Below are positions 55,136 to 64,000 of a stretch of 64,000 nucleotides of DNA, piece after piece. Origin of the DNA: Phaffia rhodozyma. Its lineage: Eukaryota > Basidiomycota > Tremellomycetes > Cystofilobasidiales > Mrakiaceae. The stretch spans positions 1,495,501 to 1,559,500 of the forward strand of contig JACGZH010000007.1 in assembly GCA_014706385.1 (NCBI GenBank), given 5' to 3'. The notes beneath the pieces were generated by a model that did not search any database, had not been told where the DNA came from, and saw only the letters and a list, made by a program, of their open reading frames with translations. The position numbers and the translations under genes are program-made. Each line of letters starts with the position of its first letter. The first letter of the stretch is position 1.

Positions 55136-55230
55136 TGATGAAGACGAGATTCGAACTCGCGCCACGAATGACTGCGAAACACGGTCGATAAACCTGAACA
55201 CAGCGCCTTAGACCACTCGGCCACTTCACC
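55136..55230 (-). tRNA. tRNA-Leu(CAG), intron-containing
   Basis: Class II tRNA. Acceptor GGTGAAG pairs with CTTCATC, and anticodon stem CTGTG with CGCAG. The anticodon loop starts TTCAGG, anticodon CAG. An intron of about 15 nt follows base 37. The gene lies 2.4 kb from the main tRNA array and closely resembles the Leu(AAG) and Leu(TAG) genes inside it. Confidence 0.92.
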
Positions 55231-57388: not shown

Positions 57389-57626
57389 TCTGGGTACTAT
57401 TCCTTCCTCACTCTATTTTGTGCTTTTCTTGTTGTAGTTTGATGTATGTACGGATTTCTTAATCACCAAAGCCATGCATACTACAGGCAGATTGCAACAT
57501 AGACACTGGATTAAATAAAATATGAATAGGGAAGATCGACGGTCATCTCGAACTGATGCCCACGCCTCGCGAGGAAACAACAGTAAAAAATGAACAAAAG
57601 AGAATGGACAAAAGAGAGTAATAAAG

Positions 57627-57698
57627 TGGACCCAGCAGGGATTGAACCCGCGGCCTTTCGCATGCAAAGCGAATGTGATACCACTACACCATAAGCCC
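57627..57698 (-). tRNA. tRNA-Ala(TGC)
   Basis: No intron. Anticodon stem TTCGC/GCGAA, loop TTTGCAT. The acceptor GGGCTTA keeps the G3:U70 wobble pair that specifies alanine. First gene of the array. Confidence 0.93.
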
Positions 57699-57738
57699 GT
57701 GTGGGATGGAGGCGTGGTGTGTCGGCCGGTGGGGCGAA

Positions 57739-57818
57739 GTGCGGTGCGGTGCGGTGAGGTGCGGTGCGGTGAGGTGCGGTAAGGTGCGGTGCGGTGAGGT
57801 GCGGCGAGGTGAGGTCTG
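57739..57818. repeat. GCGGT/GAGGT minisatellite between tRNA genes
   Basis: About 16 tandem 5-nt units alternating GCGGT and GAGGT, in the spacer between tRNA-Ala(TGC) and tRNA-Leu(CAA). The strand is strongly purine/G-biased. Confidence 0.9.
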
Positions 57819-57887
57819 GTATGATGCTATCAGAAACAGAGTCTTGGTTGCAAAACCACACGGAATCTCTCGGCGGGGGGCAAAAGA

Positions 57888-57969
57888 TGAACAGAGGGGG
57901 ATTCGAACCCCCGCATCTTGCGATATCAGAACTTGAGTCTGACGCCTTAGACCGCTCGGCCATCTGTCC
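57888..57969 (-). tRNA. tRNA-Leu(CAA)
   Basis: Class II, no intron. Acceptor GGACAGA pairs with TCTGTTC, anticodon stem TCAGA/TCTGA, loop CTCAAGT. The other three Leu genes here all have introns. Confidence 0.93.
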
Positions 57970-58058
57970 GGATGGGGTGCGTGAGGTGTGTGTGGGTGCG
58001 GGAGTGTGCGGGAGTGTGGGCCGGGTAGAGCGAGTGCACCCTGCCCGGGCACACACAC

Positions 58059-58144
58059 GCCCCGTTGGCAGAATGGTAACGCGTCTCCTTCCTACTGTCT
58101 GGTGAGAGAGGTGAAGATTCTGGGTTCAATCCCCAGGCGGGGTT
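58059..58144 (+). tRNA. tRNA-Arg(CCT), intron-containing
   Basis: Acceptor GCCCCGT/GCGGGGT. The D arm and the TCTCC anticodon stem resemble yeast tRNA-Arg(CCU). Loop starts TTCCTA. An intron of about 14 nt follows base 37. The 3' anticodon-stem strand GGTGA leaves one T-T mismatch. Confidence 0.85.
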
Positions 58145-58159
58145 TCTCTTTTTTTGCGG

Positions 58160-58285
58160 CGGGCGTGGTTGGGGTGTGGTTGGGGCGTGGTTGGGGTGTG
58201 AGTGGGGCGTGGTTGGGGTGTGAGTGGGGTGTGAGTGGGGTGTGAGTGAGAATGTGAGTGAGAAGGTGGGTGAGAATGTGGGTGT
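58160..58285. repeat. GGGGYGTGRTT/GTGAGTGG minisatellite
   Basis: Imperfect tandem units of about 10 nt built from GTGGTTGGGGTGT and GTGAGTGGGGTGT, changing gradually to GTGAGAAT units. The minus strand would be C-rich. It lies in the spacer between tRNA-Arg(CCT) and tRNA-Gly(TCC). Confidence 0.85.
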
Positions 58286-58376
58286 ACACGTGAGACGCTT
58301 GGTATGCTGGCGGGCTGTAGAGTGTGGACTGTATGCGCAGGGTATAGGACTGATGTATGTGGACCCTCCCATCAAC

Positions 58377-58448
58377 GGGATGTTCGTATAATGGTTATTA
58401 TTCCAGATTTCCATTCTGGAGACAGGTGTTCGATTCACCTACATCTCA
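58377..58448 (+). tRNA. tRNA-Gly(TCC)
   Basis: No intron. Acceptor GGGATGT/ACATCTC, anticodon stem CCAGA/TCTGG, loop TTTCCAT. A T run suited to Pol III termination follows. Confidence 0.93.
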
Positions 58449-58615
58449 TTTTTGTCATTTTTTTTTGTGCGCGTGGCGGGGGCGGAGGCGGTGGCAGTAC
58501 AAGACACTGTGCGGACGGCGGCAAGACTCTGAGGCACACGACCGGGGCGTGGGAGGGGCTAGTTGGGTGGCGGCGTTGGTGTCTAGGGGTACGGGCCGGG
58601 CTGGGGACTATAACC

Positions 58616-58709
58616 GCCCTGTTAGCTCAATCGGTAGAGCGTCAGACTCTTACCCAGTCTCTTGACAGTTGGCATCTGAAGGCTGGGGGTTCGACCCCCC
58701 CATGGGGCT
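58616..58709 (+). tRNA. tRNA-Lys(CTT), intron-containing
   Basis: Acceptor GCCCTGT/ATGGGGC, D stem GCTC/GAGC, anticodon stem TCAGA/TCTGA, loop starts CTCTTA. An intron of about 21 nt follows base 37. Confidence 0.94.
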
Positions 58710-58927
58710 AGCTTCGTTTTTGTGTGTCGGTGTGATTTTTTGTTTCTGTTTCTGTTTCTGTTTTCGTTCTTTGTGTTTTTGTTTGCTGGCTTGGTGTGCG
58801 CTTGGTGGGCCGTCGACGGTGGAAGGGTGCATGGAGGGTTGAACAGAGGTGAGAGGTGGGTCGGCTGGTGGGTCGCGCGGGCATGTCTGACGATCTGGGC
58901 TGGTAGCACGGACAGACAGACACACAC

Positions 58928-59000
58928 GGGGATTTAGCTCAGTTGGCAGAGCGCAATCTTAGCATGGTTGAGGTCGTGAGTTCGATTCTTACAATCTCCA
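58928..59000 (+). tRNA. tRNA-Ala(AGC)
   Basis: No intron. Acceptor GGGGATT/AATCTCC with G3:U70, anticodon stem CAATC/GGTTG, loop TTAGCAT. Followed by a T run. Confidence 0.94.
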
Positions 59001-59216
59001 CTTTTTTGTGTCGTTTTTGTGTGTTTTTTTGTGTTTTTTGGTAGTCTTTTTTTTTTTTTTTTTTTCCGCCCGCTGCCTTTTTTGCACTCTCTTCTTTCGC
59101 TCTGCTCCTCTCGGTCATGCTCCGTCCTGCCCACCACATCACACACCATGTGTTGCACCGAGACAGGCCGGCTGCTGCGAGCACACTGGCCGACCGGCCG
59201 GACAGGCCTTCATCCA

Positions 59217-59309
59217 GGTGAGGTGGCCGAGTGGTCTAAGGCGCTGTGTTAAGGCTCTTTCTATGCCCCGCAGTCAGTAATGGCGCGAGTTCGAATCTCG
59301 CCCTCATCA
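59217..59309 (+). tRNA. tRNA-Leu(AAG), intron-containing
   Basis: Class II. Acceptor GGTGAGG/CCTCATC, anticodon stem CTGTG/CGCAG, loop starts TTAAGG. Intron of about 13 nt. Confidence 0.93.
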
Positions 59310-59480
59310 CTTTTTGTCCGGCCGGCACGGGCCGTGCCTCTCGGGTCTGCCTGGCCGGGCTGTGCTCTCAGGTGCGGTGCCATGGTAGTATGATGCCACG
59401 TTGCAACACTGCCACACCCCCTTGCTGTCTGCCGGTCCGTTTTGGACTGTGGACTGAATGAACAGACCGTACAGCATCCA

Positions 59481-59551
59481 ACAGCTGTGGTGAAATGGTA
59501 TCATTGGTGCTTGCCATGCACTAGGCCGGGGTTCGATTCCCCGCGGTTGTA
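59481..59551 (+). tRNA. tRNA-Gly(GCC) with A1-U72
   Basis: No intron. Anticodon stem GGTGC/GCACT (one weak pair), loop TTGCCAT. The acceptor ACAGCTG pairs fully with CGGTTGT, making the first pair A1-U72 rather than the usual G1-C72. Confidence 0.88.
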
Positions 59552-59742
59552 TCCTTTTTTTTTCTCGTCCCACACACCGATCGGCTCTGTGCTGGCGGGT
59601 GCACATCTGCCGATCGTCCGTGTTCGGTCTCGCCGGCTGGTGCGATGATGGTGTGTGCTGCCGTTCGGACGAGCAGTGCGTCTGTGCCGACACAGGGGCA
59701 GGACACGAAGGACGTACCGACGCGCTCGGTGGACACCAACCG

Positions 59743-59815
59743 TCCTTCTTAGCTCAGTTGGTAGAGCGCGACACTAGTAATGTCGAGGTCAGTCGTTCAA
59801 ATCGGCTAGCAGGAA
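59743..59815 (+). tRNA. tRNA-Thr(AGT)
   Basis: No intron. Acceptor TCCTTCT/AGCAGGA with one mismatch (5-68), D stem GCTC/GAGC, anticodon stem CGACA/TGTCG, loop CTAGTAA. Confidence 0.92.
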
Positions 59816-60014
59816 CATTCTTCTTTTTTTTTATTCTCCGTTCATTTCCGTTCATTTCTTCTTCTTCTTTTTCTGTTGTATCCTTCCCTGTCGCCCCGGC
59901 GGGCGTCTGGTCGACGCGTGCTCGTTAGGGTTCCGCACAAAGCACAGCACCACACCACACCACACACCACAAACGACACCACAAACAACACCACAAACGC
60001 AGGGAAAGCATGCT

Positions 60015-60113
60015 GGTGAAGTGGCCGAGTGGTCTAAGGCGCTGTGTTTAGGTCTCTCTTCCGAGTCCAGACCGCAGTCAGTAATGGCGCGAGTTCAAAT
60101 CTCGTCTTCATCA
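60015..60113 (+). tRNA. tRNA-Leu(TAG), intron-containing
   Basis: Class II. Acceptor GGTGAAG/CTTCATC, anticodon stem CTGTG/CGCAG, loop starts TTTAGG. Intron of about 19 nt. Confidence 0.93.
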
Positions 60114-60147
60114 TTCCTTTTGTCCCGGCCGGGGGGGCAGGGCAGCT

Positions 60148-60229
60148 GGGGATTTAGGCTAGTTGGTAAACTGGACGCTTCGCACTGTCGATCATGTGTC
60201 ATTCCTGGGTTCGATTCCCGGAGTCTCCA
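60148..60229 (+). tRNA. tRNA-Ala(CGC), intron-containing
   Basis: Acceptor GGGGATT/AGTCTCC with G3:U70. Anticodon stem GACGC/GTGTC, loop starts TTCGCA. Intron of about 10 nt. The D stem has one mismatch. The Ala identity pair supports this reading over Arg(TCG). Confidence 0.85.
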
Positions 60230-60386
60230 TCTCTTTTTGGTGTGTTTCGGTGTGTTTTGTTTTATCTTGGCGTATTTGATTTCGTTGCATTTCATATGGC
60301 ATGTTGTGTGTCGTGTTCTGTGTGTCTTCTCTTGGTCTGCTGCCCACCGGCTTGTGCTCACCGCTCACCGAGCGGCGTCCATCCAA

Positions 60387-60496
60387 GGCCGTTTGGCGGA
60401 GTGGTCTAACGCGGTAGCCTCGAACGAGTCCCCTCTGTGGGACGACGCGACAGCTACTCTTCTCTGAAGGCGTAGGTTCAAATCCTACAGCGGTCG
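60387..60496 (+). tRNA. tRNA-Ser(CGA), intron-containing
   Basis: Class II with long variable arm. Acceptor GGCCGTT/AGCGGTC, discriminator G. Anticodon stem GTAGC/GCTAC, loop starts CTCGAA. Intron of about 27 nt. Confidence 0.93.
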
Positions 60497-60638
60497 TCCT
60501 TTCTCTTTTTCTTTTTGCCCACTTCCGTTCTCTCTGCCTTCTGTCGCGTCGATCCTTCCTTGCTGTCTGTGTTTGCTGTCTCCGCATGCTCACACCCCGC
60601 CAGGCAGAGAGACAGACGGGCTGACGGGCTGCCATCGT

Positions 60639-60732
60639 GCGTGATTGGTGTAGTGGTATCACGCCAAGTTTGGGCACACTTTCTGCCGTGCACATCTCTT
60701 GGAGGTCTTCGGTTCAATCCCGGAATCGCGCC
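60639..60732 (+). tRNA. tRNA-Pro(TGG), intron-containing
   Basis: Acceptor GCGTGAT/ATCGCGC, discriminator C. Anticodon stem CCAAG/CTTGG, loop starts TTTGGG. Intron of about 22 nt. Confidence 0.92.
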
Positions 60733-61261
60733 TTTTTGTTCGGCCCGTCTGGGCGGGTGGCGTGGTCGGTGTAGGGTTACTTGCTGTGTCAGTTGCTGTG
60801 TTACTTGCTGTGCTACTCATAGGATTACCCGCCACATAGCGTCCGCTGTTACCCTATGCTGTGTACTCTTTTTTTTTTTCTTTTTTCTTTTTCCTCTCCC
60901 GTTTTTTCTTTGTCCTTTTTCTTTCCTCTTTTTTCCTCTTTTTTCCTTCTTTTTTCCCTTCTTTTTCCCCCTCTTTTTTCCCCTCTTTTCCCTTCTTTTC
61001 CCTCTTTTCCTTTTTTCTTCTTCTTTTTCTTTCTTTTTCTTCTTTCTTTTCTTTTCTTCTTTTTTCTTCTTTTTCTTCTTTTTTTTCTGTCAACGATAGA
61101 TGCATCAATATAGAAAGAGAAAAAGACATATGGCAGAAAGACAACAGCATAACAATGGCAACACAGTAAAAACATAGCGAGAACACAACGAGAACACAAC
61201 CATGCAATGCAATGCACCAGCAACACAGTGTCAACACAACAGAAAGACCAAAACAAAAGAA
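60733..61261. repeat. Long polypyrimidine tract (plus strand) in the largest tRNA spacer
   Basis: From about 60869 to 61089 the plus strand is almost pure C/T, mostly T3-8 runs broken by C or CC, with a sharp change to A-rich sequence after 61100. This is the largest gap in the array. Repeated ACTTGCTGTGTT units lie at 60779-60815. No gene is recognised. Confidence 0.85.
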
Positions 61262-61272
61262 GGCAAAGATCC

Positions 61273-61369
61273 TCGTAGTCAGACGCCTTACCGCTGGGCC
61301 ACTCGGCCAGAGCGAATGGGTGGTGGGACCACTAGACCAAGACGGGGTTCGAACCCGCGATTTCCTGAT
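61273..61369 (-). tRNA. Circularly permuted tRNA-Arg(ACG)
   Basis: Read along the minus strand, the 3' half comes first (61369-61334, tRNA bases 38-73), then a 25-nt intervening sequence (61333-61309), then the 5' half (61308-61273, bases 1-37). Joined at 37/38 they give 72 nt with all arms. Acceptor GGCCGAG/CTTGGTC has seven pairs including two G-U. D stem G-C-C/G-G-C is followed by G18G19. Anticodon stem TCTGA/TCAGG has five pairs including one U-G. The loop is CTACGA plus A38. T stem GCGGG/CCCGT closes a TTCGAAC loop, and C48 is present. Anticodon ACG. No T-arm lies downstream of the 5' half, so an ordinary gene cannot be built. Leader GGCAAAGAT (61417-61409) and trailer ATCTTTGCC (61270-61262) are exactly complementary. 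A decayed tandem pair is the main alternative. The discriminator, read as U73, is uncertain. Confidence 0.78.
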
Positions 61370-61398
61370 GCATACAAGCTGGCAGCCGGCCATGACGA

Positions 61399-61409
61399 CC
61401 GTTCCACCA
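61399..61409 (-). promoter_or_regulatory. A-box-like element in the leader of the permuted tRNA gene
   Basis: TGGTGGAACGG fits the Pol III A-box consensus TRGYNNARNNG. It stands 44 nt ahead of the B box GGTTCGAACCC (61355-61345), restoring the normal A-then-B order that the permuted coding halves have lost. Confidence 0.55.
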
Positions 61410-61602
61410 TCTTTGCCTTTAGCTTTCGTCTGGTTGTGTGGATGTATGGCCAAGTGGATGTGTGGGCGTTGGCTCTGCTAGGGTTATCCGAGGCGGTGGG
61501 CGTCCGGCCGATCCGTCCGATCGCCCATCGGATATCGGACGTCGGACGTCGGACGTCGAGCCCCGGAGTACGGAGCCCGGCGGAGAAAAGGCCGTGTCGA
61601 TC

Positions 61603-61686
61603 GGTCGCCTGGTCTAGTGGTATGACGCTTGCTTCACATCTCACCCGGTGCGCAATAGGTCGCCAGTTCGATCCTGGCGGTGACCA
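61603..61686 (+). tRNA. tRNA-Val(CAC), intron-containing
   Basis: Acceptor GGTCGCC/GGTGACC, anticodon stem CTTGC/GCAAT (outer pair weak), loop starts TTCACA, variable loop AGGTC. Intron of about 12 nt. A GGACGTC direct repeat lies upstream at about 61536-61560. Confidence 0.9.
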
Positions 61687-61906
61687 TGACGTCTTTTTGC
61701 CCTCAGCACACGGCCACGATGGACAGACCGAGAGAAGCCATCGCAAGATAAGATGCATGATAAGATACACAGCCAGCCGACAGAGATGGCAGATAAGATC
61801 GACAGACACGATCGATCGGCAAGAAAGAAAGAAGATAAGATGGCGATAAAGACAAAAGACAAAAGACAAAAGATACAAGATAAAAGCCAGGTCGGCAAAA
61901 AGACAA

Positions 61907-62006
61907 GGCGCGATCCCGGGATTGAACCGAGGACCTCCGTCAGACACGTGTTTCATGCGAGCCAGCAAAGCCCGAAGACGGCGTGATACCACTACACCAA
62001 TCCCGC
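61907..62006 (-). tRNA. tRNA-Pro(CGG), intron-containing
   Basis: Acceptor GCGGGAT/ATCGCGC with one mismatch, discriminator C. Anticodon stem CCGTC/GACGG, loop starts TTCGGG. Intron of about 28 nt. The D arm is identical to that of tRNA-Pro(TGG). Confidence 0.9.
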
Positions 62007-62084
62007 CAGTGATCGCACAGGCCTGGCCGGTCAGTTTGTCGGTCTCCAGCCGGCCGTCCGTCCGTCCGTCCGGGAGGCAAAAGA

Positions 62085-62182
62085 TACTCCATATGAGGTT
62101 CGAACTCATGATCCTTGTTAAGCACTAGAGGCACGGACGGCAACCTATAAGAACAATGCGATAACCACTTCGCCAATGGAGT
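62085..62182 (-). tRNA. tRNA-Ile(TAT), intron-containing
   Basis: Acceptor ACTCCAT/ATGGAGT, anticodon stem TTGTT/AACAA, loop starts CTTATA. Intron of about 25 nt. Ile(UAU) genes are also split in other fungi. Confidence 0.93.
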
Positions 62183-62204
62183 AAAGGTAAGCGTCGGTGG
62201 AAAA

Positions 62205-62240
62205 AGACGAGACAGGACGAGACAGGACGAGACAGGACGA
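62205..62240. repeat. GACGAGACAG tandem repeat
   Basis: Three and a half perfect copies of a 10-nt unit beside tRNA-Ile(TAT). A CCGT tetranucleotide run lies on the other side at about 62054-62072. Confidence 0.85.
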
Positions 62241-62344
62241 GAGAAGGCCGCACCGGACGGCACACGCCAGACCGGGCCGAGTCCGACAGAAGACGGCACA
62301 GGCGGCAGGAGGAAGGACGGGAAAAAGAGGGCAAAAAAAAGGAA

Positions 62345-62427
62345 AGGTCCTACTCAGATTCGAACTGGGGATTCGAGAAGGTGAGTCAATCAGAATCTCG
62401 CGTGATAACCAACTTCACCATAGAACC
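62345..62427 (-). tRNA. tRNA-Gln(CTG), intron-containing
   Basis: Acceptor GGTTCTA/TAGGACC, discriminator T as in yeast Gln. Anticodon stem CGAGA/TCTCG, loop starts TTCTGA. Intron of about 10 nt. The T stem has one mismatch. Confidence 0.9.
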
Positions 62428-62619
62428 GGTCGTTGTCGGCCTATTGCCCTCGCGAGTCTCGTTCCGGCGGTGTGTCCGCTGGCAAGGGTCCGTCGGCGCG
62501 TGTCCGCTGGCAGGTGTGCTTACATCGCTGGCCGACCTGTCCGCCCGCCGCACGTGGCCCGGCCGGCATGACACGCACGGCCGACCCGATACACACAGCG
62601 GACATCGGAGCAAAAAGCA

Positions 62620-62692
62620 AGCCCAAACGCGGATTTGAACCACGGACCTCACCGTTACGAGCGGCGCACTATAACCACTTAGCTATTCGGGC
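62620..62692 (-). tRNA. tRNA-Thr(CGT)
   Basis: No intron. Acceptor GCCCGAA/TTTGGGC, anticodon stem CGCCG/CGGTG, loop CTCGTAA. Confidence 0.93.
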
Positions 62693-62843
62693 CTGGTGCC
62701 CGTCGCCCGGTCGTGTTGTCTCTAACGGTGTTGGTGTGTCGATGTGTTGGTGTACCGGTGTGGTCAGGACCCGGCCCACACCGTCCGCTCGGCCAGACGT
62801 AGCCCATCGAGGTCGACCGCCGGGGCGGCTGGGCAGTCAACGT

Positions 62844-62930
62844 GCCTGGGTAGTTTAGTGGTAAAACGTAGGTCTCATACCGTCACCCGAGTGTGATCCT
62901 CAGCCGCGAGTTCGATTCTCGCTCTGGGCA
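62844..62930 (+). tRNA. tRNA-Met(CAT), probable, intron-containing
   Basis: Acceptor GCCTGGG/TCTGGGC, T stem GCGAG/CTCGC. Loop starts CTCATA, anticodon CAT. An intron of about 16 nt is needed. The anticodon stem TAGGT/ATCCT pairs poorly (three of five, one of them G-U), so the gene may be degenerate or the intron limits differ. The G-C first pair suggests the elongator type. Confidence 0.7.
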
Positions 62931-63178
62931 ACCCTTTTTTTTCCTCTTTTGCTGTGTTTCCCATCCTTCCTGATGGTTGGTGGGCGGCCGGGCTGGGCCA
63001 GGCGGAGGTGCGGTCGGATCCGGCCGTCAGATGGGCTGAGCATGACGGCAGTGGAAGTGGAAGTGGCGGCGGTGGCGGTGGCGGTGGCGTCGGCAGTGCT
63101 GATGACGACGACGACTGCTGCTGCGCAGAGTCCGCTTGGACGAGAATCTATCCGGACAAACGGTGCTGGCACCATACC

Positions 63179-63265
63179 CGCCGCTTAGCTCATCTGGAAG
63201 AGCGTTGGTTTGTAAAGGATACACTTGTTCACCGAAGGCACTCGGTTCGATCCCGAGAGCGGCGA
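63179..63265 (+). tRNA. tRNA-Tyr(GTA), intron-containing
   Basis: Acceptor CGCCGCT/AGCGGCG with the C1-G72 pair specific to eukaryotic Tyr. Anticodon stem TTGGT/ACCGA, loop starts TTGTAA. Intron of about 14 nt. Confidence 0.95.
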
Positions 63266-63487
63266 TCTTGTTTTTTTGCCTTTTGCTTTTTGTTCTTTTT
63301 TGTTCTTTTTTTTCTGCCTTGTGGCTGCTTCCTCTTTGACTGCTAGGGTTCCTGCCTTCGGTCCAGTCCGGTCGCTCTCACGCAGCATGCGCACTGTCTC
63401 GGCCAGACGGGCGATGCGACCGATGACGTTCTCCCAGCTGCTGCTGCCGATGTAGTGGTCACCGGGGCAGGGCAAGCGATCATATCT

Positions 63488-63586
63488 GGCCGATTGGTGT
63501 AGTGGCTATCACAGCAGTTTTCGGTACTCGTCCGCAAGGTCGTCTTCGCTCGCTGCTGGTCGTCGGTTCGATCCCGACATCGGTCT
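63488..63586 (+). tRNA. tRNA-Arg(TCG), intron-containing
   Basis: Acceptor GGCCGAT/ATCGGTC, anticodon stem GCAGT/GCTGC, loop starts TTTCGG. Intron of about 26 nt. The T stem GTCGG/CCGAC is perfect. Confidence 0.85.
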
Positions 63587-63807
63587 AAATGTTCACTTTT
63601 TGTGTCCCCCTTTCTTTGCCTCTTTTTGCCCTCCTTTTTGCCCTTCTTTTTCTCTGCACGCTCTCTCTGCACTCTGTTTCTATCGGCCGTTGTGTGGGTC
63701 ACTGTCTGTCCGACCGGTCTGGCCTGTGTGCGCGTGTCCACCACGGTCGAGCCAGGTCGACACAGCTCCCTGTGGTGGGGCAGGCAGACGGGCGGGAAAA
63801 CAAAAAA

Positions 63808-63881
63808 AGACCCATACCCGACTTGAACGGATGACCTCAAGATTTGGAATCTTGCGCTGCTACCAACTGAGCTAATGGGTC
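63808..63881 (-). tRNA. tRNA-Trp(CCA)
   Basis: No intron. Acceptor GACCCAT/ATGGGTC, anticodon stem CAAGA/TCTTG, loop TTCCAAA. Last tRNA before the window end; the array may continue beyond it. Confidence 0.94.
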
Positions 63882-64000
63882 GCTTGCCCGGAGGCTCCGT
63901 GCCCAGAGGGTATGTCGAGCGCCCGGCTGGCTGGCCGTACAGACGGTGGCACCATGCGGCCGGCTTGCAGGCCTCCAGCACGGACGGCCGGACGGGGGCC

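Follow-up and report, generated by a model that had tools for sequence, protein, structure and literature searches.

The window analysed here, a 64,000-nt stretch of Phaffia rhodozyma DNA, runs at about 57.6 kb into a tandem array of tRNA genes with a unit of ~9.75 kb. The unit contains 33 normally ordered tRNA genes and, as the 34th, a tRNA-Arg(ACG) whose two halves are permuted. On the minus strand this locus reads leader, 3′ half, a 25-nt spacer, 5′ half, trailer, and T-run (table 1); the order of the halves, their coordinates, the strand, and the 25-nt gap had all been given in the initial annotation and are borne out by the sequence. The permuted gene is adjoined by a polypyrimidine/polypurine tract (61120–60841), which is hypervariable, 30 array copies showing substitutions at 149/280 sites. 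A tRNA-Leu(CAG) gene with an intron (55136–55230) lies directly outside the array edge and is missing from the called genes of the unit.

Table 1.—Features of the permuted tRNA-Arg(ACG) locus and its surroundings, in positions of the window.
Feature	Position	Strand	Basis
First ~9.75-kb tRNA array unit, part; runs beyond the window	57626..64000	.	ARAGORN, unit calls
Leader/trailer helix, 5′ strand, AAGGCAAAGAT	61409..61419	-	11 perfect Watson–Crick pairs with 61270–61260
Putative relic of a tRNA 5′ half, from D arm to anticodon loop, in the present leader	61380..61411	-	Similarity to 5′ halves of the unit
A box in leader, TGGTGGAACGG, upstream of B box	61399..61409	-	Score 10.08, rough matrix
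Leader CUUGUA, pairing with U33-A34-C35-G36-A37-G(+1) of the 5′ half	61373..61378	-	Six pairs, one G.U
tRNA-Arg(ACG) 3′ half, positions 38–73, discriminator T73	61334..61369	-	Sequence, ARAGORN, T-arm scan, pair counts
B box within T arm of the 3′ half, GGTTCGAACCC	61345..61355	-	Sequence, T-arm scan
Intervening sequence, 25 nt, between positions 73 and 1, without T-run	61309..61333	-	Sequence
tRNA-Arg(ACG) 5′ half, positions 1–37	61273..61308	-	Sequence, ARAGORN
A box of the 5′ half	61301–61291	-	Score 9.17, rough A-box matrix
Leader/trailer helix, trailer strand, ATCTTTGCCTT	61260..61270	-	Pairing with leader
Pol III terminator-like run after the trailer, TTTTGTTTT	61250..61258	-	Sequence

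Joined at 37/38, the halves form a 72-mer that ARAGORN calls as tRNA-Arg(acg), with 7/7 acceptor pairs, 5/5 pairs in the anticodon stem and 5/5 in the T stem (G.U counted as a pair), and a D stem of three pairs in the ARAGORN drawing. The cloverleaf proposed in the initial annotation is thus upheld; its T stem, described there as perfect, does have all five pairs but includes G49.U65 and is not strictly so. T8, A14, G15 with C48, G18G19, T33, and a TTCGAAC loop can be read directly in the sequence, among them the G18G19, C48, and T-loop that had already been pointed out. The cloverleaf lies 2.8 kcal/mol above the minimum free energy (MFE) structure, and those of 14 other tRNAs of the unit lie 1.1–9.8 kcal/mol above theirs. 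As a control for chance, halves of these 14 tRNAs were combined in mismatched pairs, of which 1/182 reached 7/7 in the acceptor stem and none of the 182 combined this with 5/5 in the anticodon stem. The acceptor end is similar to that of the Arg(TCG) gene of the same unit (GGCCGAG/CTTGGTC+T vs. GGCCGAT/ATCGGTC+T).

Neither ARAGORN, whether or not introns were allowed, nor Rfam at the gathering score called a normally ordered tRNA at the locus. The same holds for a normal-order tRNA assembled from the leader and the 3′ half (ARAGORN with introns of ≤200 nt, Rfam at the gathering score): by eye this has 6/7 acceptor and 3/5 anticodon-stem pairs, and relaxed Rfam settings return solely tRNA-Sec at 18.6 bits. 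When one array unit was scanned for T arms with a TTCRA loop and ≥4/5 stem pairs, only ordinary tRNA genes or their complements were matched, except for 61358–61342 and its complement; no T arm of the scanned form was found shortly 3′ of the 5′ half, as had been claimed.

Across the assembly (19.77 Mb, 15 contigs), the permuted locus is found at 43 places, about one per unit. A pattern for the 5′ half matched 43 places, 42 of them without mismatch and all in arrays (control: 0). The arrays are located on the small contigs C4–C7, which appear to be wholly array, and at one end of each of C9–C13; one unit on C13 (tRNA-Ala at 1325260) has no 5′-half match between 1319 and 1338 kb. By extrapolation, the arrays amount to about 2% of the assembly and may hold roughly 1400 tRNA genes.

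Among 44 first-look candidates 40 were scored, and 36 of these 40 are identical across 201 nt. In 239 other windows of 201 nt the modal fraction has a median of 0.5; 5/239 reach 36/40, and 24/239 reach 36/44, the value obtained when each of the four unscored candidates is counted as imperfect. The eight best comparison windows each contain 102–126 nt of tRNA gene, so that the permuted locus, its spacer included, seems to behave as a tRNA-rich stretch, unlike average filler. Six imperfect copies were seen, three of them altered within a half. Over 30 copies, substituted sites number 0 in the 156-nt locus versus 66/1755 in spacer and 8/1000 in ordinary tRNA genes, a profile biased by the choice of perfectly matching copies; the 201-nt windows give the fair comparison. 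It should be noted that the 43 copies are not independent because of homogenisation within the arrays. The authors of tRNAscan-SE 2.0, in the part of their paper available to us, class as repeats a family of fungal tRNA-like elements that are high in copy number and identically flanked, which they do not see in authentic fungal tRNA genes (PMC8450103); the presence of 34 different tRNA genes per unit speaks against such a repeat-element reading for the array as a whole.

A normally ordered tRNA-Arg(ACG) elsewhere, which the initial annotation had named as the thing to look for, was found neither by BLAST nor by five patterns in the 19.77-Mb assembly; these searches are similarity-based and would overlook a gene that is very divergent or lies in unassembled DNA. 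With the joined sequence as query, BLAST gave 80 half-matches, all in arrays (40 of 44 candidates scored). A pattern from D arm to anticodon matched 43 places, every one of them in an array (control: 0); like the next three patterns, it allowed ≤3 mismatches. Two D-arm patterns for D loops longer than that of the permuted gene, which are unable to find the array copies that the pattern of the right length recovers (43), had no match outside the arrays. An intronless 3′-side pattern, for which this genome offers no positive control, had no match in the assembly, and a short anticodon-arm pattern matched 56 times versus 53 in the control, with no tRNA in any of the 20 matches excised. Two looser patterns from TACG to the B box gave 165 and 187 matches versus 125 and 109 in the controls (counts only); the array matches listed include D arms belonging to Ser(AGA) and Glu(TTC), and the letters of a tRNA-like match at C2:1345438 are similar to those of a Lys gene. 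The Rfam tRNA family search scored 63 of 2082 candidates and is no census. Outside this assembly, the patterns had 0 matches in viral contigs and 19 in other genome contigs, which are bacterial records and were taken as chance.

In eukaryotes, CGU and CGC are decoded by an inosine-34 tRNA. The unit also contains, in normal order, the seven remaining A34 (inosine-type) tRNAs, those for Ala, Thr, Leu, Ser, Pro, Val, and Ile, which makes Arg(ACG) the expected and otherwise missing one. In five long stop-to-stop reading frames (3250 codons, predicted only), CGT, CGC, and CGA occur at 6.8, 3.7, and 20.6 per 1000 codons, about 31 together. The permuted gene is probably the organism's only source of the inosine-34 Arg tRNA for CGU, CGC, and CGA.

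The leader resembles a tRNA 5′ half. Ungapped, it shares 23/32 positions with the 5′ half of the unit's tRNA-Asp(GTC), and its best score against all 34 5′ halves was equalled by 3/1000 shuffles and 0/1356 spacer 40-mers; on the strength of this identity and this rarity we consider it a relic. Asp(GTC) ranks best, followed by Val(AAC) and Gly(GCC), with Arg(ACG) 16th of 34; the lost half may therefore come from another tRNA, and a plain duplication of the Arg gene does not follow from this ranking. The relic includes an A box, scored with a rough matrix built on the 33 tRNAs of the unit (their own scores range from -0.9 to 15.0, median 10.3); its score was equalled in 29/5000 shuffled leaders and 11/760 spacer windows. 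With a putative relic 5′ half and its A box in the leader, the permuted locus is about 1.5 tRNAs. As the leader A box stands upstream of the B box in the 3′ half, A and B boxes occur in normal order. In algal permuted tRNA genes this order is inverted (PMC3978253, section 5). An upstream TATA-like box, common in the algal genes but not defining, was not seen by eye in 61490–61370.

The 11-bp helix between leader and trailer closes the predicted transcript directly ahead of the T-run. Such a helix occurred in 20/20000 shuffles and at 11/20000 random places away from the locus; it is nevertheless weaker evidence than these odds imply, since a similar helix is present at 1/22 ordinary array tRNA genes, and we have downgraded it from decisive proof. 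Its strands GGCAAAG (61417–61411) and CTTTGCC, the second of which leads into T and then the T-run, may be the remains of an outer acceptor stem. They pair 7/7 by Watson–Crick rules, and pair 4 differs in both strands from that of the inner stem. Inverted repeats of 8–11 bp in leader/trailer position also flank ordinary array tRNAs at 59217–59310, 60639–60732, 61603–61686, and 62345–62427.

With respect to splicing, the initial annotation had placed the break exactly at the canonical intron site and considered it suitable for the ordinary tRNA splicing endonuclease. The position of the junction, 37/38, stands, but the 32:-3 anticodon–intron pair is absent. By stem pairing, this pair was modelled in 16/17 ordinary neighbouring introns; the permuted gene has C.U there, with G at -2, and its junction is a non-ideal eukaryotic substrate owing to C32 opposite U at -3. 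Of a BHB-type junction, the leader/trailer helix and the anticodon pairing are possible, but the 32:-3 pair is lacking. The unconstrained MFE structure of the precursor (-65.1) is not the cloverleaf, which, together with a leader hairpin and the anticodon–intron helix, comes to -50.4. The one ordinary intron of the 17 without the modelled pair belongs to an Ala(CGC) gene at 60147–60231. Domains for the processing machinery were matched in the assembly: the splicing endonuclease domain PF01974 at two places, and the tRNA-ligase kinase domain PF08303, typical of fungal Trl1, as two neighbouring pieces on C8. PF08303 is absent from 14 prokaryote controls, and a eukaryotic genome is indicated by matches to the Sec8 and Vps53 domains.

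We interpret the locus, with a probability of about 0.83, as a functional circularly permuted (type II, 37/38) nuclear tRNA-Arg(ACG) gene that would be processed through a circle. The relic A box of the leader and the B box of the 3′ half would recruit Pol III, giving a transcript that extends from the leader through the 3′ half, the 25-nt spacer, and the 5′ half into the trailer as far as the T-run. In this precursor the halves would fold as a cloverleaf, with leader/trailer pairing holding the anticodon end; the tRNA splicing endonuclease would cleave after 37 and before 38, a fungal-type tRNA ligase would seal the circle, RNase P and tRNase Z would excise the spacer from it, and the product would then be charged. 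The gene probably arose through decay of the outer halves of tRNA genes in tandem and owes its spread to the array. Tandem duplication followed by decay of the outer halves is a model discussed by Soma (PMC3978253, section 10, as far as the text is accessible), of which the locus may preserve an intermediate. A more specific history is tentative, and we hold it at slightly less than even odds: an essential Arg(ICG) would derive wholly from a recently born permuted gene, in which the upstream 5′ half decayed to an A box with a promoter role alone and the strands of the outer acceptor stem became a clamp for the circularising precursor, and which a homogenising array fixed throughout the genome. 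Our confidence in this history was lowered by the resemblance of the relic to Asp, Val, and Gly 5′ halves ahead of Arg(ACG).

Decayed tandem tRNA copies could produce a similar arrangement, as a non-functional remnant with the real tRNA-Arg(ACG) elsewhere, divergent or unassembled. The relic 5′ half in the leader and the missing 32:-3 pair would suit such a history, and a gene lost from view is conceivable where C4–C7 are apparently array only and C9–C13 end in arrays, as the assembly probably broke there. Complete acceptor and anticodon stems (7/7 and 5/5) and the retained tRNA hallmarks are, however, unexpected under decay, variation at the locus is at the low end for 201-nt stretches, and no other Arg(ACG) gene was found in the assembly; we regard this explanation as unlikely. 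We consider it very unlikely that the locus encodes a split tRNA, with halves from separate transcripts, or from different array transcripts, joined in trans without a circle. The pairing for splicing would be identical in trans and the arrays would supply many copies, but the gap between the halves is just 25 nt and has no T-run, and the 5′ half has an A box without a B box and no T arm of the scanned form shortly 3′ of it. A third alternative is that the product is no tRNA, being either a tRNA-derived element or a non-coding RNA that carries a permuted tRNA-like module, comparable to the bacterial YrlA. In its favour, relaxed Rfam settings match YrlA at 18.0 bits and, with leader plus 3′ half as query, tRNA-Sec at 18.6 bits. 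Both values fall far below the gathering scores of 69 and 47, and it would be left unexplained why the anticodon arm and the acceptor stem are complete; we find this alternative scarcely credible.

A permuted gene in the sense favoured here has its closest counterparts in the type II (37/38) genes of Cyanidioschyzon merolae, prasinophyte green algae, and the Bigelowiella nucleomorph, as described in the accessible portion of PMC3978253. Shared with these are the 3′ half in first place, the 37/38 junction, a spacer length (25 nt) within their span of 1–74 nt, and a T-run solely after the 5′ half. The Phaffia locus differs from them in its fungal genome, its 43 array copies, its visible relic 5′ half, and its promoter, with a leader A box upstream of the B box where the algae have upstream TATA-like or AT-rich sequence; Arg(ACG) is missing from the 34 permuted genes tabulated in that source (PMC3978253). 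The permuted genes of the archaeon Thermofilum pendens share the order of halves but are joined at 59/60 and encode CCA (PMC3978253, same portion). In the green alga Auxenochlorella, again with the same order, permuted genes were found through an incomplete tRNA set, judging by the available part of PMC12633428. The lack of a normally ordered gene for the same tRNA is usual for permuted tRNA genes, though not strictly defining. Among the papers listed on permuted tRNAs, mostly outside subscription journals, no title or beginning of an abstract reports a fungal case, which within that range supports the remark in the initial annotation that it knew of none in fungi.

Tandem tRNA arrays are known from Entamoeba, with 25 unit types of ≤5 tRNA genes each (PMC2652664), and from the oomycete Phytophthora infestans, with single-gene, dimeric, or trimeric units (PMC9584435), versus 34 genes per unit here; in the parts of the literature available, these are the nearest cases, and no comparable fungal array was found. 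The accessible text on Schizosaccharomyces osmophilus describes small tRNA clusters at centromeres, and that on Cryptococcus goes no further than tRNA prediction.

The papers cited here place permuted tRNA genes in unicellular algae, a nucleomorph, and one archaeon, and a fungal case would carry the phenomenon into a further kingdom, the one to which the yeast used to work out tRNA splicing belongs. The permuted gene would also show a way in which A and B boxes can be retained in working order, and our reading predicts a circular RNA. ARAGORN and Rfam both miss the permuted tRNA, so similar cases may hide in genomes that seemingly lack an essential tRNA.

An orphan T arm with acceptor-like sequence (GCAGGTTCGAATCCTGC CAACTCCA) was seen beside Arg(TCT) genes, 237 nt upstream of the gene start, at three loci (L001, L009, and L010) and is absent at five other Arg(TCT) loci that were read. 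Its letters rule it out as Arg(ACG), and a 5′ half belonging to it was not recognised. The three Arg(TCT) genes concerned lie 8–20 kb from contig ends.
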